Shown here: positions 7,129 through 20,453 of the stretch, in pieces
Layout of the letters: each line of letters starts with the position of its first letter
How positions within the stretch are numbered: position 1 is the stretch's first letter
NCBI GenBank assembly: GCA_026770025.1
Contig: JAMXDE010000011.1
Location: 1,302,001 to 1,366,000 of the forward strand
Direction: 5' to 3'
DNA: 64,000 bases
From: Craspedostauros australis
Lineage: Eukaryota > Bacillariophyta > Bacillariophyceae > Mastogloiales > Achnanthaceae
Position numbers and translations under genes: made by a program
The notes under the pieces: generated by a model
Database searches by the model: none
Seen by the model: only the letters and a program-made list of their open reading frames with translations
What the model was told of the DNA's origin: nothing

Positions 7129-10100
7129 TCATATGATGTCGGGTTCGTCGACGGGCATGTTTTCGTCATGCCCGTTGCCGCCAGTCTCGTCCATTCCTCT
7201 GGTGTTCATCTTCCTGGCTGCATTCTTTTCTGCAGCTTCCAGCTCGATATGGATCTGAGTTTGCGTTGGGAAGTACATGTTGGAGAAAACCTTGCCTGCA
7301 ACATCGAAAGCGATCGCTGCCACAGGAACGAAGATGATCAACATCCAGTTCACAGAGCGCATGCCCAGCACGTGTGAAGTCACACCGGCGAAGTTGAAGA
7401 AACTGCCAGGACCCTGCTGCTCGCTCACAATCTGTTGTTTGCGGAAGTTGAAGTGGTGAAAAGGTTGGTGTTCGAGTTATGAGAGGTAGAGTGGGATGAA
7501 AAGTGGGGTGAGAAAATTCGCAGATGGAACGCACAGCCAAGGAATGGCATCTTGCAGTGACAGCATGGTACGGTGGGCATCTTGACGCGAAGAAAGATGA
7601 TTGCCCCTGTGTCCACGTGGTCGTTTCCCAGCACATCAGCACAACAGCACGACAACACATTATCACGCCAACGAACAACGCCTGCGTTTCCGCCAATCCG
7701 AAGTTGACGTACCTCGTAAGCCCAAATGAAGAAGAACCAAAAGAAAATGGAACCGAATGTCAGCCCATGCCAGGTGTAGGCAAGGCGGCTGAAGAAGCCC
7801 TCCTTGGCGTCCTTGCTGCAAGTGAATGCCGGCCAGTTGCCATTGATGATAGACTTTGACTCGTAGAGGACCTGTTTGGCAAGAGCGGAGAGAGAGGGAG
7901 AAAAAGAATTGAACGAAAGTGCGAACGAAAGTGAACGTGAGAAAGATGCAAGACCGCATTTTGCACTCCGGCAAATAAAAAACGGAACGATCCACGACAG
8001 CGCCATTCTGTGGACGTACCTTGAGGGCAAGCAAAATAACGAGGCATGTGAATGTGATCGTGCCGACGCTCGTGAGATCCGCGCCTTCTGCCTCTCCAGG
8101 ATGGTCGTCGTCGAGTTTGCTGGAAAGTCCGCGGAATGCAGACGATATTCCACCACCTTTTCCCAATGGCTGCACTGTGAAGTGGTACAAGGAAAAAATG
8201 TGCACGAAAGTCACGATCACCCATCGGAACATCACTCGGATGGTCATGAGCTCGTTCTTGCGGGATGGTTCGTAGACTTCGGGGTTGCGCTTCACGTAGT
8301 CCTTATCCAAGCATCTGTCGAATGCACCGAACACCATGATGGGCACCCCAGCCACGAAGTTGAGCATAGCGATGACCCAATCGTCGAAGAGGGCCGTGCC
8401 GCTGAAGACGGTCTCGCCGTTGAAAACGATAAGACATCCGGCCATGATGGCGTTCTTGTAGAAGGAGAACATGACGACATTGCTCAGGCGGAAGAAGTTC
8501 CACCGACCGTGGACCAGCACAAGGTCCTCGAGGAATCGGAACTGCGCGATAGCAAAGTCGGATGCGTTGACTGCCTGCTTTCCTTCCTTTCCAGAAATAC
8601 CGATGCCGACGTGCGCTTCTTGGATCATGCCAACGTCGTTGGCACCATCGCCGATAGCCAACGTCACTGGTTCTGGGCTCACGTTGTGACGCACCAATTT
8701 CACTAGCAGAGCCTTTTGCCGTGGGCTTACACGGCATGCGATGACGGCGTTGCACCCGCTGGCGATCGAAAACACGAGCTCCTCCAAATCGGGATCGCCG
8801 AGCATGTGTTTCAGGGCGGCACCTTCGATGACGAGCGCCCGTGGTCCTTCACCAGACGACATGCCCTCCTCGGTGTGGGGGGCTGCCTGCTCGCTCGGCT
8901 CTTCGTCGATCGAGGCCAACACGGCCTGCCTCTTCTCCTTCTGCAGATGCCGAATCAGCTTGCCCTTTCGTCTGTCCTTGTCGACTGCGAACAGTCTCTC
9001 CATGAGCGTCCGGCGCTTCAGGTCAAAATCTGTATCGTCCGAATTGGTAGGCATGAAGCTGCTCAACGACAGCACATCTTCGTCGATCAGCGCCTCGTCC
9101 TTGTCCTCCAGCTGGTCTGCTGTGAGGTTGGCAATGGCCGCGTCGCGGTCCTGGGAGAAAGACATGCGGCCCTCCTTTCGGTTCTGCCCCAGCAGACTCC
9201 TTGCGGATTTGGCTCGCGTGAAGACTTTGGGGAGATCGTCAGATGACAGCGCCAACTCTCCGGAAGCGTCGGTGCCTTTGAACGAGGCGGGGCCTGTGGT
9301 TGCCTTGCGGCTTCGCTGGGCCTGCCCCTCGGGGGTTCCGAGGAAGTCGTCGATGATCTTCTCAGCGCGGTTGCGCACCTTCCGTCTCCTCTCAACGTCG
9401 ATGAGCATGCGCTCGTCGATGGCCTCCTGGTCGTCCAACGTCATGATCTTGGTCTCCAAGGCCACGGTGCTGAACCCAAGCAGCCCGACAATCATCTTCT
9501 CGACGGTGAGGAAGAATTTCCGGAACCCGCGGAGGACTTTTCGCAGCGCCTTTCCTACTTCATGCGAAATATGCTCCGACGTGCAGCCCCTGACATCTCT
9601 GTCCACTTCGGACCTTTGGTACACGGGAAGCTTGCCTGCCTTGACGAGCTTGATGAACTCCATGGCGCACTGCGCGCGGACGAAGTTGGCCCCCTTGTCT
9701 GCCACCTCCGTGACGCACATCTTTGGCGTCAGGACCTTTGTTGAGTATCCGATTTCGATGGCAGTCTCGCGCTTGTCGCCAGTCAGAACCCAAAGTTTGA
9801 TGCCTGCCTTCTCCAACGTCGAGATGGTCTTCGGGACTCCGACCTGCAGCTTGTCTTCAATGGCCGTTGCTCCGACGATGGTCAGGTTGCGTTCGATGGC
9901 AAATGCAGCTGCCTTCAGCTTTTCGTCGCGCTCCTTGATGGAGGTTGCCGCGGTTCTGTGCAGCTCTACCCACTCGGCGCACTCATCTTCTGTCAAGACT
10001 CTCATTGCCAGCACAAGGGTTCTGAGTCCCTCCGAGGCAAACTCTCCAAGATGGGATTGGAGACCGTAGATGTGCTCCATCTCCCACTCGTCGCTGGCGA

Positions 10101-13100
10101 ACACGTCGTCATCATCCACATCATCCTCCGAAACCGTCGACAACGAGCGTTTGGGTGGCATCGGCATACGCGAAGGTTCGGTTTCTGCCGTCAGCAGCGC
10201 CTGACCTCCGGAGCACACGTCGGCATCGAGCATCGCCGAGTCGGCGCCCTTGCAGAACAGGATCGGGAGACTGCCCAACTCCGGCGGAGATCTCAGCAAG
10301 ATGGACATGCGCTTGCGTTCTGAATCGAACTTGTTAACAGCAAGGATGGACCAGGTCTCGGTTCTCTGGCTGCTTGCATCAACCATATCTGCTTGGCTGG
10401 GTTCGTAGATGGATCCGCGTCTGTCCTGGTTGATCGATTTCGCCGCAAGCAGCTTGGGAGTGAGCCTGCCAGTCTTCAGACTATCCACAAGTTGTTCGTC
10501 CTCCAGGAAGGACGGGTGCGGCGAGCGGATCTTGATGCCCGTAGAATCTCTGGCGATGACTTGGAAGCCGAAGGAGTTGCTGGCGGCGCTCACGAGCGCA
10601 CCCTCATCTGGACTTTCGGCCTGGTAGGCAAACCCATGCGGGGCGCCGTCCGGCGCCTTCTCGAGCGATTGGGCCTGGTCTGACAGGTTGGATTCTGTGC
10701 TGATAACTCGATCACGTGGCAAACCGTCAGGCGCTTCGATTTCGATCGCTTGCTCTTCGTGGACTGGGCGGAGATTGCCGAAACCAGAGTTGTCGGTCAT
10801 TTCGCTCATGGCACGGTCGCGGTTGCGATTGCCGAAGAGCTTCTTGACGTAACTGCGGGAGGAGGATTGCGAGGTGACAGATTTGGAAGAATCGATGTTT
10901 GTGGACAGATCCAGGTCCTTCTCCACTACGACGGTGTGGCAAAGACTCATGACGCGCAAAAACATCTCAGCATTGAACGTCAGAAGCTTGCTGGGACCAG
11001 CATCGGCCTTGTCCGGTTGACCGGACTTCGATGGGTATTTCGACTTGTCGGGATATGTCCTGTTGCTGTTGCTGTTGCCGCTGCCACCGCCACGACCGAA
11101 GGAGAACAGCCTACCAACGAGCAACTGACGAAGAGGGTGGAAGCTCGACACACGGTCATCGTCATCTTGGTCTTCAGTTTGTGCACCTGGACGTGATTTC
11201 TGCACCGGCGGCCCGAAAACGGACCCATCAACAGAGCAACGCTTGAACCGCATCACATTCTGCGTCAGAGTTCCAGTCTTGTCCGAGAAGATATACTCGA
11301 TGCGTCCCAGATCTGTAACGTTGGTGCTGCGTGCGACTGCGCGCGTGTCCGTGACAGTGTCGTAAAGATCGAGGTCGACGTAGATCAACCAAAGGAAGAA
11401 GAAGTTGATGGCTTCGACTGTGACGTACATACTCAATGGGACGAAGTTACTGAGCAACGTGACGTAGAGAAGGAACATCTGTGCCCAGTTGGGTGTCTTT
11501 TCATCCCAATCTGGTGCATCCAAGTCGGGGAGGTAGGGCCATTTCTCAGATGTGTCCTCGTTCAAACCGACGTACCTGACAGCAGAAGCGATCGAAGGAT
11601 GGAGGCAAACAGTTCATCAGAAGGCGACAGATGTAATGCAAGTGGAAGAGAATGAGAAAGAGCGAGAAGCATGCACATGAAAGATGGAGGAGCATGGGGG
11701 GAAGGATGAGTGGACCTGTTCTTGTGATGAAAAGGGTGCGCATTGCATGCACATTGCATGAAACATTGTATCACTGCGCAGGAAACAAGGAAAGCGGACG
11801 ACTCACCACAAGAACTCGAATTTCTCATCGTTCGCGATCACCGACTGGGTTGCCAGGTAGCTGATGCAAAGGATCATGATAATGATGATGGCAAGTACGG
11901 TGTAGTTCATCAAGATGTCGAGTTGACTGAACTTCGATGGTGTTTCGAACGAGTTCTGGACGAGCTTCGTGTCGGTTCCTGTGAAGCATGCCAAACCGAT
12001 GGCCCACTCGGTGTTCCGCAGGACGGCGCCACGGAGCAGGATGTTGTCTGCGCCGAGCGGGATGTCGAAGGACGGGCCGTCACTCTCGACTGGGGGCAGA
12101 GTGAGCTTTCCGGTGAATGTGTTGACGTGAGGGTTGGGTGGTTCGGTGGTGAGGGTCGCAACGAAGCGCACATCGTCCGTCTCGAATGCCTTGGAATTGT
12201 TGGGCAATTTCATGGATTCTGAGACGAATCCCTTGACAGAGTCCAAGCCCGCGGAGAAGAAGTTGCGCTTGGAGCTGGTACCGAGCGATGAGGCGTCTCC
12301 GGCGTAGTTTGGATTTTCCAGCGCAGAGATCCCGTGCGGGTGAGCCAAGGTGGAGAACCTCGTCACTCGCTTGGTGGCCTGCTCCAAGGTTTCGATCTTC
12401 TCGGTGTCATCTTCTTCGTCCTCCTCTTCGTAAGTCTCGAGCATGGGCGTCGAACTTCTCAGAAAACGTTGCACTCGTTTCGGCAGCTGCGGGCTGGTTC
12501 TCAGCTTGAGGTTGGTCTCTCCGTCGATGGAGCTGGTTTCGATGTAGGAGCTGCCGTTGTCTCCGCTGCTCGCCAGCAGAATCATGTCGGCTGGAACCAT
12601 GTTGCGGTTCTTAACGAGGACAAGATGTCCCTGCCGAATATTCATCCTGCTGATTTTTTGGAACGCCACCTTGACGTTGGAGGAATCGGATGTCGGCGCG
12701 GGCGTCTCCGGCGTTTGATTGTTGGAGGTTTGATGGTATGCCTTATCCAGCCTGACCACGACATCCTTGCCATCCAGGATTGATTCCTCGCGTTCGGCCT
12801 CCGGATCTTCCTTCAACTCGTCGGCGCGCCTCAGGATGACGCATGGCGCATTGTTGGTGAGCCTGTCGCTGATGTGACGTCTCCGATCCGCGGAACCTTC
12901 AATCAGTAAACTGAACGAAATGACCGCCGCCAGCGGCCCAAGCGTTGTCCATGGTGAAATCGCGGATTCGTACAGATCGGTGTACGTTCCAATCGCCATG
13001 ACGCCTCCCACGCACAGAAAGTACAGGTTGGCAAACCGGCGGAATTGCTCCAAAACAGCCTGAAGGATTGCAGGTCATTATGGTATCGGAGTGCATGTCG

Positions 13101-13922
13101 TAGTATGGTATGTCGTAGTATGGTATAGTTTGGCGTAGGATGGTATGATACGGCATGCAGGTGTATTGATAGAGTCGTGTTCGTCGCAACATGACAAGAA
13201 AGCGCCGGTAACGAGGTGTTGGATGTGAAGGCATTACGAGATGTTGTTGAACACAACATAGTGGTCGTGCGGTTGCGATGGCCGTCGGAGCAGGTCACAT
13301 GAGAGGTTCCACGTTGGTGCGTTGGTCCATCGACGCATGGGTTGGTGGGGTTCACGGATCCGCCAAGTTCGGGGCATCACCATTGCGAACGACCAACCAA
13401 ACAAAATTCGTTTCGCCGTTTCGGGATGGCCATGAAGGAACAACCACGAAACAGTCGTGTGAAGGAGACAAGAGATCACGCAAGACCATGAAAGATCGGC
13501 GCGCAAATGTTGCACGATCAAGAATGCCTGTGAGAACATTGCCATGTGCAAGTCACTGCTGCTGTATCTGTTGCTATTGCTTTCGTATCAGGGATCAGCA
13601 TCATCTGGTTGAGACATGATTTCCTGCCTGTGCAAGGGCACATGGCGCAGAGTGCAATAGAGCAGTCTTGTCCGGAACAACGTTCGGCGCATTCAACAAT
13701 TTCCAACGCGCTGCTCTTGCTGAGACCGTATCCGAGAGCGGCGGAAGTACCACAGGCGAGCAGGACAATTGAGCCAGGGTGTGCACTTACGACTGGGACG
13801 AACGTCAGGATGGTGTACCGCGACGTGGTGATGCGGTTGTTGCATCGCTCCAGATCTGGTCGACCGGCCAGCAGGACGCGATCCCGCTGATCGTCGATCT
13901 CCTTGCTTCCTCCCAACCCCAT
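7129..13922 (-). CDS. P4-type phospholipid-transporting ATPase (flippase)
   Basis: Five exons (13791-13922, 11807-13059, 8020-11575, 7713-7871, 7129-7431) keep phase across GT-AG junctions and give 1,800 residues. All main P-type motifs are present. The opening matches the flippase N-terminus (YTILTF... EQFRRFANLYFL). The actuator loop has DGET at about 223-226. The phosphorylation motif is DKTGTLT, with Asp560 as the acyl-phosphate site. KGADSAML lies in the nucleotide domain, TGDKRE is near 1061 and GDGANDVGMIQ near 1437. About six C-terminal membrane segments follow. P4 ATPases use ATP to move phospholipids to the cytosolic leaflet. The protein is longer than usual (about 1,100-1,350): roughly 300 residues separate TGDKRE from the conserved LVIEGAALKHML block. 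The first exon starts 18 bp from an LTR retrotransposon, so its promoter context is unusual. Confidence 0.95.
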
Positions 13923-14130
13923 GGTGTGACGTGATGTGCTTAACGGAATGTGGTGATACAGATGATGATGTTGATGGTGTAACCTAATTGGGATTATGAG
14001 CTTTTCTGCTGTTGCTCTTGTCTTTGTTGATGTTCTTGTTGATGACAGCGGCTGACCCGTTCTCATCGGTCATCCTCTGTGTTGCTTGTGCTCTCGCGCT
14101 TTCTGCGCTCAGTGTGACATCTTCGACCTG

Positions 14131-14568
14131 CAAGACACGGGAAAACCGACGAAACACGATCAGGCTGAGTCGTGAGTCGGTACGACTTCTCTGCCAATTG
14201 TCCTGTTCGGATTGCCTGTTTGACTAAACCGAATACTTGCATGCAGTAGATAACGTTAATTCACGTCTGTAAATTCAAATCAAGACAAATCCTGGTTCAA
14301 AAACAAAATAGGTGAAAGTACTCCAGACTCGACGAAAGTAATTAGGAATAGGTGAAAGTACTCCAGACTCGACGAAAGTACTCAGGATTAGGTGAAAGTA
14401 CTGTTTCGATGAATAACCAAAATGACGGTTATTACCTATTATTTAACGTCCTCAATGGTGTCAACGGAGTTTGACTAATCAGAATAATACATTGGTGCAC
14501 AAATGCCACGTCAGCATTGACATTCTTGGGCGTTTCTTCGATCGTTTCGTCGAAATTCCCGTGTCTTG
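14131..14568. mobile_element. MITE (438 bp) inside the 3' LTR
   Basis: Terminal inverted repeats begin CAAGACACGGGAA at both ends and stay similar for about 25 bp (both continue into CGACGAAAC). The insertion is flanked by the 3-bp duplication ctg at 14128-14130 and 14569-14571. The other LTR has one ctg at this point, so it is the empty site. Inside is a 40-bp tandem repeat (14310-14402). Coding capacity is nil. A 3-bp duplication fits PIF/Harbinger or CACTA-type transposases. The ends do not match the classic CACTA start, so the superfamily is open. Confidence 0.9.
14310..14402. repeat. 40-bp tandem repeat within the MITE
   Basis: Two full units and one partial unit beginning aggtgaaagtact. 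Each full unit contains gactcgacgaaagta, which echoes the CGACGAAA core of the terminal inverted repeats. This looks like subterminal binding-site repeats of a DNA transposon. Confidence 0.85.
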
Positions 14569-16470
14569 CTGTTTGATTCGATGTCCATTTTCGCTCACGC
14601 TCCAATACGCCCCTTCGAGGCATGTTTGGTGGGAACCTTCCATACATGGCTTGATCCTGGCAAGGTTGCAATGGAGCATGCTTGTCATGGTTTGCGTAGG
14701 GCTCTCAGCGGCACCTGGACTCGTTGTGCCATCTTCATCGTCATCTTCATCATGTGTATATGTATCCGGGGAAATGTGAGGGGGTCTTCTGAATAGGGAC
14801 ATGCAACACAGCTTTTTTTCAAACACTCGTTCGGTGCGCGTGCAGTCTCGCTTGGTGTGCGTCTGGGCTGAGAGGGCGGTCTTGATTCTGGTGCCCCTCT
14901 TGCTTGTCTTCTTCGTTGCTTTTGCAGTAAGGGCATGATGATGTTCCTTGTTTTTCGTCATCAGTGGTTTGGTCCACCTGAAGAATAGGTGATGTTGCAA
15001 CTGCCTGGTCCTCGCATACTTTGCGATGATGAACGGATCGTCGAGTTGTACATCGTCAAGTCGGTACCATGACTTGTCACTGTTTCCCCACAACACTTTC
15101 AGCTTCATGTGTTCCTGGTCGATGCCACGGAATAGGACCTTGTGCAGGGTTTCGTGGAGCATCCGTAGTCCAAATGTTTGTTGTTTTGGTTTCCTTGGTC
15201 TGGCAGATCGCCTTGGCAGTGTATCTTGTTGGACTCCTATCCATTTCTTCTTCTTTGCTGTATCCGGTGGCTTTGGGATGTGGTTGACACTTGGCGTCGC
15301 CACAATCATGGCAGCCAGCGGGTCCCCCCCTGAATCCTTGGAGCGTGGCAATGCCCGATCTGGAGGATTTGCGCTTGAGTCACTGGCAGTTCTGCCAGGG
15401 CTTTTGGTAATTGGTTGTCCGGCCCTGTTGCGCACACTGCTCTGCTTGAAGGGTGCAGTAGTGACAGCAGTCGCCCCTTTCTTCCAGACCACCCATGTAA
15501 GCTTTTCAGCTGTTCGTTGGGATTGACCGGAAGTAGACTTGGTGCCACTGACGGACCTGTCTGCGGAGTCGTATGCCAGTGAACGTGGTCGAATGGGCGG
15601 CGAAGGCGTGTCCCGGTCCTTCTTGCGTTGCTTGTTCTTGATGCGTCGTGTGACTTTCGCGTGCTCGGATGGTTGTGACGTGCTGAATGCGTCAGCTGGT
15701 GCATGCATATCGGGGATGGATGCGCTCGTGCGATGCATGGCCTCTGCCACATCATCAAACCCTGGAGAACTGTGCAGTTCTGGCACCTCTACTGTCGCAG
15801 GCATTGTTGGGGCCATGCGCTCCGGCGGCTTGGCTATTCCCGCTCGTCGGCTGATGGATCGTGCGATGCGTTCTGCCATCATTTCTTCGTTTACAGTGGT
15901 CTTGAGGTCGTCGAACGTCTCGATGGTTCCTTGGACGAACTTGGAGTAGATGGCTGGTTGGATGGCATCCATGCCATACCAATCCATACAGTTCTCAGCG
16001 TGCCTTGGCTGCTGTTTTGTTACAGCATGGTGAAGTGCTGCTATCTTCTGGTGTGGGTGTTCTGACACGTAGTTGTTGAAGTCTTCAACATCAAGGATGT
16101 CTGCCTTGACGCAAAGGATGGATGCTCTGTCTGGAACCTCGGACAGGTTTTTGTGCATCTCAATGTATTCTGCAAATGACATGAGCAGTTCGAAGTCCGG
16201 TAACAGTGGAACGAGCATGACTGGTACTCTGGTCGTCATCACCATGATGGAAGGGTCACGTCCACCAATGTGGCACATGTTCTCGAGGACCCTGCTGAGC
16301 TCCAAGCCTTTGTCAGCCTGCCTCTTGGTGTAGAATGTCATGCAATCGATGAACACTCTGCTAAAACCCATGCTCTCAGTCAGGAAGGTAATTGTCGTTG
16401 TTGTTTTATCTGGCGGTTCTTTGGGCATCTGGAACCCAGACGCGGTGTTCACCCCAGTGGATCGCGACAT
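14479..16470 (-). CDS. Gag-like / chromo-like retroelement protein
   Basis: The ORF from the ATG at 16470 has 663 codons. About 621 lie in the internal region, 12 in the LTR and the rest run into the MITE by chance. The N-terminal ~220 residues are a helical Cys/Met-containing region, perhaps a capsid-like domain. A long basic, Ser/Pro/Lys-rich linker follows, and near residues 440-500 a small module has the pattern VLWGNSDKSWYRLDD...AKYAR. That module resembles the chromodomain-like segment found near the integrase or RT junction of some Ty1/copia polyproteins. No CCHC knuckle, protease or RT motif was seen. Upstream in-frame Met codons exist, but I prefer the start in MSRSTG. The MITE replaced the original C-terminal ~46 residues encoded by the LTR. 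Confidence 0.6.
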   Translation of the reverse strand: MSRSTGVNTASGFQMPKEPPDKTTTTITFLTESMGFSRVFIDCMTFYTKRQADKGLELSRVLENMCHIGGRDPSIMVMTTRVPVMLVPLLPDFELLMSFAEYIEMHKNLSEVPDRASILCVKADILDVEDFNNYVSEHPHQKIAALHHAVTKQQPRHAENCMDWYGMDAIQPAIYSKFVQGTIETFDDLKTTVNEEMMAERIARSISRRAGIAKPPERMAPTMPATVEVPELHSSPGFDDVAEAMHRTSASIPDMHAPADAFSTSQPSEHAKVTRRIKNKQRKKDRDTPSPPIRPRSLAYDSADRSVSGTKSTSGQSQRTAEKLTWVVWKKGATAVTTAPFKQSSVRNRAGQPITKSPGRTASDSSANPPDRALPRSKDSGGDPLAAMIVATPSVNHIPKPPDTAKKKKWIGVQQDTLPRRSARPRKPKQQTFGLRMLHETLHKVLFRGIDQEHMKLKVLWGNSDKSWYRLDDVQLDDPFIIAKYARTRQLQHHLFFRWTKPLMTKNKEHHHALTAKATKKTSKRGTRIKTALSAQTHTKRDCTRTERVFEKKLCCMSLFRRPPHISPDTYTHDEDDDEDGTTSPGAAESPTQTMTSMLHCNLARIKPCMEGSHQTCLEGAYWSVSENGHRIKQQDTGISTKRSKKRPRMSMLTWHLCTNVLF

Positions 16471-16657
16471 CTTTCTCTCTCTCTCTTCTGTCCGCACTTC
16501 TGTTCTCTGCATACGTGAAATCCCCCCTCAACTCGTGGTTGCCTTCCGGATTAGAATGCGCCCGTGCCTGTGCCTTCTCTCTCAAATCTCTGCGGCGGCG
16601 GCGTCGGCGGTCTCGTCAGTGTGGCACAACGAAGTGAGCTCTCAAGGTCGTATAAAC

Positions 16658-16883
16658 TAACGGAATGTGGTGATACAGATGATGATGTTGATGGTGTAAC
16701 CTAATTGGGATTATGAGCTTTTCTGCTGTTGCTCTTGTCTTTGTTGATGTTCTTGTTGATGACAGCGGCTGACCCGTTCTCATCAGTCATCCTCTGTGTT
16801 GCTTGTGCTCTCACACTTTCTGTGCTCAGCGTGACATCTTCGACCTGTTTGATTCGATGTCCATTTTCGCTCACGCTCCAATA
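16658..16883 (-). repeat. 5' LTR of the retrotransposon
   Basis: This intact 226-bp LTR is the uninterrupted counterpart of the left copy. On the minus strand it carries an open frame (starting tyr-trp-ser-val in frame with the element ORF in the other LTR) that ends at 16701. It is the empty-site reference for the MITE in the left LTR. Confidence 0.9.
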
Positions 16884-16920
16884 GTGCTGATGCGATCGTG
16901 CACTGCTCAAGAGCGTTCCT

Positions 16921-17412
16921 CTATTGAACGGAATGGATACAAATGGACGAAGGAGACTCCTTTGATCTTTGCACTTTGGCAGTAGCCACTCTCACAGTCC
17001 TCTCGTTGTTTGTAATTTCGTTGTCAGCATTATCAACAAAGCCGTCGTCGTCGCCGCTGCGCTTCTTTGTGTGTTTCTTGTTGTTGTGCTTTGTTTTGCT
17101 TTGCTTTGCTTTCTTGCTGTGGCCTCTCTTGCTCCTCACAGCGTCGTCGGCTCCAGTACTCTCTGGAGGATGGTCAAGCGGAAGCGCTCCGACACCACCG
17201 AAAGTGAAGACGGCCTCTTGCGGGGGAGCACCCTTCGACGAAACCAGCGTGAGAACTCGATAAGTCAACAGGAACCGCGATCGTTTCGCTTCCAAGAACA
17301 GGATCGTAAACTTTTGTTCCAAATCGCAGTTTTGTGTCAGCGACCAGAGTCTATGCGGTTCTTCTGGAGCGTCCCCTGAGAGCACACAGACACGCAGCGT
17401 ATTACCATGCAC
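16921..17412 (-). CDS. Hypothetical protein, 163 residues
   Basis: A single open frame with its ATG at 17412. The N-terminal ~80 residues look globular (alternating hydrophobic and charged). Residues 95-125 are Lys-rich with a following Asp run, and the tail is polar. Support for coding comes from the A/C-rich, G-poor sequence upstream on the minus strand, which matches the leaders of well-supported genes here. The stop codon is 33 bp from the LTR element's target-site duplication. No family was recognised. An antisense frame on the plus strand starting at 17169 is possible but less likely. Confidence 0.4.
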   Translation of the reverse strand: MHGNTLRVCVLSGDAPEEPHRLWSLTQNCDLEQKFTILFLEAKRSRFLLTYRVLTLVSSKGAPPQEAVFTFGGVGALPLDHPPESTGADDAVRSKRGHSKKAKQSKTKHNNKKHTKKRSGDDDGFVDNADNEITNNERTVRVATAKVQRSKESPSSICIHSVQ

Positions 17413-17849
17413 TTCCGGATGACCTCTGTGCGTGATTGTGGAGTGGTGGATCGTCGTTTTGCTATGCTATTGTTACCTCTCCGTGCTCTGTGTTGTGTTT
17501 TGTGTTGTTTTCGCATCAACCAAGATGTCACGATTCAATCTCTCTCTCTGATCTCTTGTGTTCCCCTCCACTCACAAAACCGTGTTGTTCAGTTTGGGTT
17601 CGTGCAGTTTTTGATTGAAACCGGTCGAACAGTGAACTTCGTCCACTCAGCTGCTCGCGCGGAGATGGTGGACATGCAGGATGTCTGCGCAGCAACACAC
17701 GTGTTCGGAAAGTGACCCTCTCTCGTGCCACCAACTCGCACACATCAACGGCAACAACGCCTCCTCCTCCCACACAACGCTCGTACAAAACAGCAAACGA
17801 CGAGGGCAACGACAAAGAGAAGGTCACAGCAGGCGCGCACAATCACACC
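17413..17849. promoter_or_regulatory. Possible bidirectional promoter region
   Basis: The half next to 17412 is T/G-rich on the plus strand, and the half next to 17850 is A/C-rich on the plus strand. That is the pattern expected for two divergent leaders. No other feature is seen. Confidence 0.3.
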
Positions 17850-18041
17850 ATGGCGCAGCTCTCCCACCAAAAACGAAATCACGATACAGAGTCACCGCCT
17901 GGCAGGCTCGTACTGGTACTCGCAACCAGTCACAGCAAAGATCTTTCGGAACGTGCAATTGTACAAGGAAATGTGGTACAACTCATGAATGACTCTTGTT
18001 CCATCAAGTCGTTGGGTTGCAGCACACTCGACAATTTGTGA
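17850..18041 (+). CDS. Small hypothetical ORF, 63 residues
   Basis: The ATG at 17850 follows about 150 bases of A/C-rich sequence like other leaders in the window. The peptide has a central hydrophobic stretch (RLVLVLATS) and no known motif. It could be a first exon of an unrecognised spliced gene or a chance frame. Confidence is low. Confidence 0.22.
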   Translation: MAQLSHQKRNHDTESPPGRLVLVLATSHSKDLSERAIVQGNVVQLMNDSCSIKSLGCSTLDNL

Positions 18042-18463
18042 AAGAACTGGAGCGACGAACATCGAAGAACCTCGCATCAAACCATGCGAATCGCCATCCT
18101 GTCCGTCTGTGCGCCAACTTTCGACTTCTCTGCAGTTCCTCTCTCTTGCACAAGTCCCAATCCACGACAAACCTGTCTCCGAAGTGCCCAAACGAGTGTG
18201 AAAGTGGCACGAACTCACAATCAGAGACAAGCTGCTCGTCGCTGCTGCAACTTCATCGCACAGATTGGTATTAGCATAGTACATGTCCTCGTACATTGTG
18301 AGTGTATGGCATGCAGGTAGTTCACACAGCAGACCAGTAGCCATCCACTCCTCCCTTCACATTTGATGGCAACTGTTCGTTCATCTGCTGGCTCCGACGA
18401 TCGGCAAGTATCACAACAATAAGGTGGATCTGGTGTGGCACATTTCTCTCATGCCACTTGCAC

Positions 18464-18548: not shown

Positions 18549-19838
18549 TGCCATTGCCATCGCAACCTGTGCCGTTGCTCCATTTCACTGGCAACACTTG
18601 GATCAGCAGGATGCGGAGATTGTGAGCATGGTGTCGCCATTCCTACAGTTTTGACCAAGGTTGTTGCCACTCTTTGGATCGACGTGGTGGTGAATGGAAG
18701 GTGAATGGAAGCGTCAAATGCATACCCTATCGAGTTGTGGGCCTCGTGTGATGATTGGGCTTGAATGGATTGGAGTTTGATGGAATCATTGACTGGTCGA
18801 TGGATCAACGGATGGATGTGTTGAAGTGAGGTGAAAAGAATTGCATTGTACTATTTAGATTTCTTTCTTGCTTTTGCTTCGAGTGGGGAGGTTGGTGTGC
18901 CTGAGTGATTTGAGCTGAGATGGATTATGTTGGGTTGAATTGAATTGCATTGCATTGCATTGCATTGCATCTTGCTGCGTGGCTTGTACGTTGGACGAGA
19001 ACGTTGGTTCGATTCCGCTGCCGATGTTGATGATATGTTTTGGATTTGCAGTAGTAGATGTGGTAGTAGATATTGCTGCGCTGCTGCTGTGTGGTTGTCG
19101 TTGTAGAATTGATGTGATCTGGGTGGAAATTGGTCACATCTGCTTGTGCTGTGTGTATGGTATGACATGGTACGTGTGTTGGAGTCATTGCTCCCTGTTG
19201 ATGGTGCACAAAATGGGTGTGCTTGTGTGTTCCTGTTGATTGTAGGCGTCTTGAACTGACCATGGTATAATATGTGCTCGTCGTTTGTGATGTTGTTCTG
19301 CACTGAGAGCATTGTTTGTGGTGGGGTTTTGGATACAGTTGTGAACGCCATTTGGTTGAATGCGCCCTCCTCCCAATCCAACCTGCTGCGACCATCGGCG
19401 TTGAGACGTGTATGATACTCTGCGAGTGCTTCTGCCCGAGTTCATTGTGAAAGTTGAGTGTGATTGTTGGTGGTGCTGCAAGGGACGGTCGGAGACAGTG
19501 ACGGATGCGCACGGAATATGACTGTGCCAATCTGAAAGCATGGCTGAATTTTCACTTTGCCTCACTCAAGTTTACTCGGACGAGCAAGGGATGAGCGTGT
19601 GGGTATCAGTTGAGGATGTGATTGTTCAATGTGCTTGTATGCACTCGGACCATCCAGTACTTGGATTAGTCATGGATAAAAGCAACAGACAGACTGCCAA
19701 TAGAACTTTATGATGTTTCAAATTGAGTCCCATGTGTCCCTGTTCTCTCTCCAAGCAATATTTTGAATAATATTGGACATTATATTCACGTTGCGCATGT
19801 CGGTCTGATTCCATGTTAGAAAGCACGGCTGGCATGTT

Positions 19839-20217
19839 TCAGACTGATTCAGAATGGATTCAGACTTTCAGAACCAATTCAGAACTTCAGAACTTCTGAC
19901 TTTTTCCGTTCTGATTCTGAATTGAGAGTGGTTCTTCCAGTGGTTGTCATGGGGGCTTTGCTGCAGACATGCAATAGTTACCTTCTGTGTCGTGGCTTCT
20001 CCATGTGTATCATTTCCAATCATGTTGTTTGCCCATGCAGAAACATAAATGCTCTTCTGTGCACCAACACAGACACAAAGAGAGGAGCAGCCAAACACCA
20101 GCTGCGACATCAACAACATGAAGAACTTGACTTGCATCAGCAAGAGCATTCAAACTTTCAGAATGGATTCAGAACGGATTCAGAACTTCAGAAGTTCTGA
20201 TTCTGAATTCAGAATGA
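19839..20217. repeat. Pair of TTCAGAA-rich blocks about 310 bp apart
   Basis: Both blocks repeat variants of attcagaacttcagaa, and the second ends in the 16-bp palindrome attctgaattcagaat. The blocks are in direct orientation but are partly self-complementary. They may be the ends of a small old transposon. No target-site duplication was identified. Confidence 0.45.
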
Positions 20218-20453
20218 GTTGTCTGATCCAGAACAGTGACAGGAAGGCACTGAAGTGTTCCATGTTGAGTGGCCTGCCCTGCTCTCTAACTGTTATATTC
20301 AATATCCAAATGTGTCTTCACAATTGAAACGTGAACCCACAAAACTGATGGTGAATTAGTCGAATTAGTCGAATACAAACCGTCTTGTTTATCCACGATT
20401 AATCCAAGTACCGGACGGTCCCGGCATCTGACCCCCAGCAACGAGCGCAACAC

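Follow-up and report, generated by a model that had tools for sequence, protein, structure and literature searches.

Long terminal repeats (LTRs) of retrotransposons have reportedly been recruited as promoters of host genes, NAIP being an example. Here we describe a locus of the diatom Craspedostauros australis at which a putative non-autonomous Ty1/copia element, itself carrying a miniature inverted-repeat transposable element (MITE) in its 3' LTR, ends 18 bp upstream of the start codon of a flippase gene and in the same orientation as the gene. The stretch analysed, called the window in the following, comprises 64,000 nucleotides (bases 1302001-1366000 of contig C9; the assembly has 74.8 Mb in 90 contigs, and C1, C25, C65 etc. 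denote other contigs). In agreement with a diatom origin, the large subunit of rubisco encoded on C90 has its five best matches among solved structures, at 1049-1072 bits, in rubiscos of diatoms.

Several described systems come close to one or the other part of this locus. As far as the passages cited from the respective papers go, Tf1 and Tf2 of fission yeast are distributed in promoter regions of RNA polymerase II (Pol II) (PMC4600332), ATCOPIA93 of Arabidopsis prefers exons and H2A.Z nucleosomes (PMC6668482), and NuwaI of the PHIS superfamily is defined by target duplications of the type CWG and is reported from animals only (PMC4482050). For diatoms, the relevant sections of Maumus et al. 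(2009, PMC2806351) describe three Copia (CoDi) families without TG/CA LTR ends and cloned Copia insertions that are intergenic, at times close to coding sequences; one insertion, PtC34, lies 82 bp upstream of a 5' untranslated region (diatom literature including PMC2806351). Apart from the remark in PMC2806351, our literature search, which covered sources in part, found no diatom count of Copia insertions relative to gene starts, and it found nothing on the flippase of this locus.

The element was recognized by two pairs of direct repeats, 13941-14130/16658-16847 (97% identical) and 14569-14607/16845-16883 (100%), which together are its two LTRs, and by a 5-bp target-site duplication (TSD) outside them. 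These repeats and the TSD bear out the geometry put forward in the original prediction: the LTR ends at 13941 and the flippase ATG lies at 13922, the gap of 18 bp consisting of 13 native bp and the TSD; LTR and gene are both on the minus strand; a MITE lies within the LTR; and the native upstream region, whose promoter was said to have been pushed 2.9 kb away, is displaced by 2,948 bp. The MITE, an insert of 438 bp with a 3-bp duplication CTG, interrupts the 3' LTR and is absent from the 226-bp 5' LTR. The parts are:

13941..16883, minus strand: putative non-autonomous Ty1/copia element, 2,943 bp from LTR to LTR, assigned by the LTR pair, the TSD and its likeness to the copies on C25 and C1
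16658..16883, minus strand: 5' LTR, 226 bp, sense-strand ends TATTGG..CCGTTA
13941..14607, minus strand: 3' LTR, identical 226-bp layout, split by the MITE
14131..14568, no strand assigned: MITE, 438 bp, terminal inverted repeats (TIRs) CAAGACACGGGAA.., TSD CTG/CAG, internal repeats of 20-40 bp
13936..13940, no strand assigned: TSD on the gene side, AGCAC (sense)
16884..16888, no strand assigned: TSD on the upstream side, AGCAC (sense)
14479..16512, minus strand: open reading frame (ORF) of 677 aa that ends within the MITE; its N-terminus resembles the first 338 residues of the ORF on C25, followed by later remnants; no Pfam domain
16889..18400, minus strand: native upstream region of the flippase gene, now on the far side of the element

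The insertion is genuine and chance is excluded, because the same LTR recurs at 93-99% identity on C25, C65 and C1, each time with its own, differing 5-bp TSD. The MITE was inserted later than the LTR element, as it sits in the 3' LTR alone. When the flanks were searched against the assembly, 13061-13940 was found at a single place and 16884-18400 at a single place plus a partial match of 47 bp; an empty allele, i.e., the locus without the element, was not among the assembled sequences. A duplicated or alternative haplotype, considered because a few flank bases aligned beside the LTRs on C65 and C25, was rejected: the C65 flank is a different sequence and the 5' region of the flippase gene maps to a single place. 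The intergenic region that holds the element also has, at 19647-20421, two inverted-repeat arms of 34 bp, 707 bp apart, which resemble a further TIR element.

On C25 (199595-211056) lies a relative taken to be autonomous, whose LTRs are identical to each other; it has the TSD GGTAC and an ORF of 2,565 aa, in which Pfam finds the Copia reverse transcriptase RVT_2 (E 6.3e-20). No integrase model gave a match to this relative at E 0.1, and an order of integrase before reverse transcriptase is suggested by ORF motifs read by eye alone. The 677-aa ORF of the window matches the C25 ORF in pieces (93% over the first 338 residues, 53-84% in three later pieces, and 30%, which is weak, in a fourth) and has no Pfam domain; because of this and of its similarity to the C25 relative, we class the window copy as an internally deleted, non-autonomous member of Ty1/copia. 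The copy on C1 has the same deleted layout (1.86 kb at 86%) and C65 carries a solo LTR with the TSD AAATC. In the whole family the LTRs end in TA..TA and not in TG..CA. The genome is rich in Copia elements: with one reverse transcriptase piece as query, at least 150 matches were scored among 1,366 first-look candidates. Two peculiarities of the C25 relative may be added. About 3.35 kb separate its 5' LTR from the region that directly follows the LTR in the window copy (L010 9477 to L011 2930), and of the 226 bases in its 3' LTR, 183 belong to its long frame (L010:1638-1820).

The gene downstream of the element is made up as follows:

13791..13922, minus strand: flippase exon 1, ATG at 13922 (CAT 13920-13922) in the context CACACCATGG, followed by GTAAGT
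11807..13059, minus strand: flippase exon 2, begins after CAG
7663..11575, minus strand: flippase exon 3 region with DKTGT and PF16212; a C-terminal intron is likely

Joined via GT..AG introns, exons 1-3 give an open frame of 1,765 codons with DKTGT, the end of which probably runs into the C-terminal intron. PF16212 matches with E 2.5e-41, and the best solved relative is DRS2 (E 5.4e-115); by these matches the product is an intact Drs2-class P4-ATPase. The P4-ATPase N-terminal model matches in exon 1 and in exon 2 and the frame is continuous across both, which supports the ATG at 13922. An additional coding exon upstream of the element was looked for and rejected: Pfam yields nothing above its cut-off in the ORF 16921-17412, and the N-terminal motif reads through exons 1-2, although a short non-conserved exon could still exist. 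The N-terminus MGLGGSK (13902-13922) fits the N-myristoylation pattern, and an LTR-encoded extension would remove it. In the genome the P4-ATPase C-terminal model matches at this place alone (3 candidates scored; paralogues with other intron patterns could escape), so that loss of the flippase would probably be costly.

What a message of this gene looks like at its 5' end is constrained by the position of the LTR. An mRNA with the ATG 13922 could be free of LTR sequence only by starting within the 18 bp next to the ATG or by using the weak acceptor 13938 (score -1.5); if the allele is expressed, its 5' leader is thus almost necessarily derived from the LTR. The 141 nt preceding the flippase ATG (14063-13923) contain no ATG. 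Between MITE and gene there are three sense ATGs, at 14120 (3 codons), at 14073 (29 codons) and at 14066, the last being in the frame of the flippase:

14064..14066, minus strand: LTR ATG in the flippase frame, 48 codons upstream, no intervening stop

Translation from 14066 would lengthen the flippase by 48 residues encoded in the LTR, a length of open frame that is by itself unremarkable. For a transcript that starts downstream of 14064 the flippase ATG comes first; a transcript starting in the MITE or farther upstream carries several earlier ATGs.

We propose, tentatively, the following course of events. The non-autonomous Ty1/copia element inserted in front of an intact P4-ATPase gene, in its promoter-proximal or 5'-leader region, in keeping with an apparent tendency of its Copia clade to insert near gene starts (see below); a MITE with a CWG target subsequently entered the 3' LTR; and the allele would still be used, its 5' leader coming from the LTR. 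The message would most likely arise by initiation within the 3' LTR or its MITE, starts downstream of 14064 putting the flippase ATG first. Both the expression of the allele and the start of transcription in the LTR or MITE are predictions. To this explanation as a whole we give somewhat less than an even chance, and it leads among the readings, ahead of splicing at the MITE edge and of a weak or heterozygous allele. A same-orientation LTR directly upstream of a host gene, the arrangement found in a co-opted LTR promoter, is present.

Several points speak against initiation in the LTR. Of nine poly(A)/TATA-like strings tried in the 3' LTR the sole match was CATAAT at 13998, and no LTR promoter element was identified; the 5' LTR in front could occlude the 3' LTR; the MITE divides the U3 side of the 3' LTR; methylation is suggested by the loss of CpG from the LTRs; the MITE edge, being a strong match to a 3' splice site, opens a route from the native promoter; and related copies lie next to gene starts in both orientations. 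The idea of the original prediction that the LTR has been taken over as a promoter is thus retained in part. The shared orientation, the displacement of the native region by 2,948 bp and the ATG-free stretch of 141 nt agree with it, but the position can also be explained by the insertion habit of the Copia clade, and the splice route is available.

For the insertion habit 17 loci were compared; the window's family contributes 4 and two related Copia LTR families, L034 and L040, contribute 6 and 7, and 16 of the loci are sites other than the window. The L034 query gave 20 matches, of which 9 at 6 loci were kept (2 of a nested C28 copy and 9 weak or partial ones were left out), and the L040 query 39, of which 12 at 7 loci were kept (the 27 excluded ones include a match nested in the C17 copy); five diverged LTR matches were dropped (C5, C29, C59, C14 and C6, the last four with shared flanks), and 15 further related loci lie outside the count. 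An exact 5-bp TSD was present at 12 of the 17 loci, a 4-bp TSD with the boundary uncertain by a base at 4, and none at 1 (C45). Flanks were counted at an ORF score cut-off of 30 within 800 bp, with a scorer trained on 7 window ORFs, by which flippase exon 1 and the C65 ORF went uncounted; the window site itself never scored.

At the 16 other sites, 8 flanks (at 7 sites) showed a gene start pointing away from the element and 1 flank a gene end (one-sided sign test for 8 of 9, about 0.02), as compared with 0.28 starts and 0.26 ends per position at non-coding control positions of the window (n=998). For all 17 sites within 800 bp the ratio of starts to ends was 9:2 at cut-off 20 and 8:1 at cut-off 40; within 400 bp it was 5:1, 4:0 and 4:0 at cut-offs 20, 30 and 40. 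In two cases, both with the gene antisense to the element, the distance from LTR to start was 9 and 54 bp (2 of 16 within 60 bp versus 142 of 5,204 control positions, p 0.07). A Pfam cut-off was passed by 6 of the 10 gene-start ORFs scanned, some of the 10 being below the cut-off of the count; the ORF beside C25 passes and that beside C65 does not. The counted start flanks were 3 sense and 5 antisense (5 and 5 with the window and the uncounted C65 ORF), and because starts occur in both orientations there is no sign that promoter use of the LTR decides where copies lie or persist. The Copia clade thus appears to prefer gene starts, a lead that the small sample of 16 sites supports but does not prove, and the position beside the flippase gene may reflect such an integration preference rather than promoter capture.

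It is also conceivable that there is no such preference and that insertions near an ATG, the one at the flippase included, are due to chance and to the loss of insertions inside genes, a view which we consider unlikely but the strongest of the alternatives. It draws on the small sample (a counted start at 7 of the 16 other sites, none at the nine sites C17, C13, C48, C32, C19a, C4, C45, C65 and C1), on weaker gene-end ORFs (scores 16-30) at C4, C6, C45, C19b and C65 beside weaker gene-start ORFs at C17, C13 and C19b, which turn the ratio to 9:2 at cut-off 20, on the modest statistics of both comparisons, and on the facts that all control positions come from one window and that the 15 related loci were outside the count. 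Starts and ends are nearly equally frequent at the control positions, however, and loss within genes would not favour starts over ends.

No tRNA gene was present in the 26 flanks L061-L086 or at the C25 and C65 loci, i.e., Ty1-like targeting of the RNA polymerase III type was not seen there; the window has one tRNA gene, more than 30 kb from the element. The C1 copy has two tRNA-Met genes (L012:674-941) at 1.1-1.4 kb upstream of its 5' LTR. Other neighbourhoods deserve mention. On C6 (L083, 1009078-1010577, and 1010578-1010838) a solo LTR of a related Copia family with the TSD ATAGA adjoins a gene with weak WD40 matches, the ATG being 9 bp away and the gene oppositely oriented; on C23 (L061, 157370-158869) a UBA-domain gene (weak PUB match) has a full-length Copia copy, antisense to it, 54 bp upstream of its ATG; and the solo LTR on C65 is followed by two tandem ORFs with similar starts (L009 from 7497 and 9410), of which only the first adjoins the LTR and has a weak Pfam match below the cut-off.

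The next explanation concerns the message itself: the native promoter beyond 16889 would still drive the flippase gene, the element being spliced out up to 14127, which would leave a leader of 205 nt, 187 nt of them LTR. The site is formed by the end of the MITE together with its TSD:

14127..14145, minus strand: candidate 3' splice site, MITE end and TSD CAG (TTTTCCCGTGTCTTGCAG^G), first exon base 14127

Splice sites were scored with a generic weight matrix, one not trained on the host species. With a score of 5.0 the acceptor at 14127 is the best between 13923 and 14200; the flippase gene has two scored acceptors, at 2.8 and 2.9. Among the 7,462 AG sites that the two strands of the window contain, it ranks 8th (0.0625 per kb, which gives 0.013 expected in the 208 nt concerned), and the MITE-free 5' LTR has no acceptor above 0.7. 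As donors, 17476 GAG|GTAACA (2.4) and 17575 TTT|GTGAGT (1.0) are candidates in the upstream region, the two flippase donors scored having 0.8 and 5.1. Because the MITE edge is such a strong match, splicing over the element is more plausible than the original prediction had assumed. A high score alone, however, proves no use, since high scores also occur antisense to the flippase frame, at some of the seven higher-ranked sites and, for example, at the plus-strand positions 8100, 8595 and 8947; donors as good as the better upstream one are ordinary (about 1 per kb); the resulting leader would contain the ATGs 14120, 14073 and 14066; and since the MITE is younger than the LTR element, the gene at first had to do without this acceptor. 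We regard continued use of the native promoter by this route as improbable.

The MITE has both ends in common with longer elements of several kb. All 9 distinct element ends, from 6 copies, adjoin CTG or CAG (11 of 20 rows of the search correspond to these 9 ends; the other 9, internal or chance matches, were excluded), and because of this an insertion of the MITE family would be expected to put an acceptor-like end on one strand. The TIR starts with CAAGACACGG, hence with CAAG and not with GGG. In the one long copy scanned, on C22, the longest ORF (about 270 aa) had no Pfam match that would point to a transposase. At the other, sense-strand end of the MITE the first 28 bases contain no GT, so that splice sites at both ends, as in introners, are not found.

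The last explanation takes the allele with the insertion to be weak or silent; the assembly would represent one haplotype, and an insertion-free second allele or other P4-ATPases would carry the function. Between the two LTRs there are 5 differences in 226 sites, all of them transitions at CpG, a pattern that fits decay of methylated CpG; the ratio of observed to expected CpG is 0.76 in the interior of the element and 0.71-0.78 in the LTRs versus 1.07 in the flippase region. The LTR retrotransposons tested in Phaeodactylum were methylated (PMC2806351). Moreover, read-through from the native promoter would first meet the 677-aa ORF and many ATGs. The coding frame is open over exons 1-3, however, the MITE shows no decay (CpG observed/expected 1.38), and neither flank has a second copy in the assembly, although a collapsed assembly would hide one. 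Taken together, we see a weak or silent allele as quite improbable; for the silenced allele that had been named as an alternative in the original prediction, the CpG decay gives weak support.

The LTR differences were also considered for dating. In comparison with other copies, 4 changes are in the 5' LTR and 1 is in the gene-side 3' LTR, too few to separate the LTRs. LTR sites 54 and 61, both CpG, tie the 3' LTR of the window to the C65 LTR and the 5' LTR of the window to the C25 LTRs, for which recurrent CpG change or conversion is possible. As two of the five differences agree with different relatives in this way and all five are at CpG, the divergence (K 0.0226) is a poor clock and no age is given.

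Initiation in the LTR or its MITE thus remains the leading reading. One may go further and suppose that the Copia clade directs its integration, whatever the orientation, towards the 5' ends of Pol II genes, and that two nested insertions rebuilt the start of the flippase gene. The leader, and perhaps also a promoter or an N-terminal extension in frame with the gene, would then come from the LTR, and a 3' splice site ready for use from the CWG MITE; in this full form the proposal is doubtful. The insertion belongs to a known, ordinary kind of event and is well described and instructive. As a natural case it is clean and resolved to the base, a mobile element having displaced the native upstream region right at a start codon; the preference for gene starts, if true, would tell where one Copia clade integrates in diatoms; and the match at the MITE edge is an example of a transposon end and a target duplication forming a putative splice signal.

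With the recruited LTRs, as reportedly that of NAIP, the locus has in common that an LTR lies directly upstream of a gene and shares its orientation, the case described here being known from the DNA sequence alone. As to elements that favour particular regions of genes, Tf1 is not a Copia element. In so far as the cited passages describe them, Tf1/Tf2 (PMC4600332) and ATCOPIA93 (PMC6668482) are LTR elements with such a preference, like the Copia clade of the window, whose preference, unlike theirs, rests on 16 sites. The closest relatives in diatoms are the Ty1/copia CoDi groups, which, by the account in the pertinent sections of PMC2806351, have the Ty1/copia reverse transcriptase, the LTR pair and the TSD, TG/CA ends being missing in three families as they are here; the window copy differs from them in being a deletion derivative, in having its LTR at most 18 bp from an ATG, and in carrying a MITE in the 3' LTR. 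The MITE, in turn, shares the 3-bp CWG target duplication with the NuwaI DNA transposons of PHIS but differs from them, as characterized in the cited part of PMC4482050, by a TIR with CAAG instead of GGG, and the one long copy examined gave no transposase. Introners, finally, differ from the MITE, which has a 3' splice-site match only and no GT near its other end; as portrayed in the passages used from PMC9860276, they share with it that a TIR element brings along a TSD able to supply part of a splice site.

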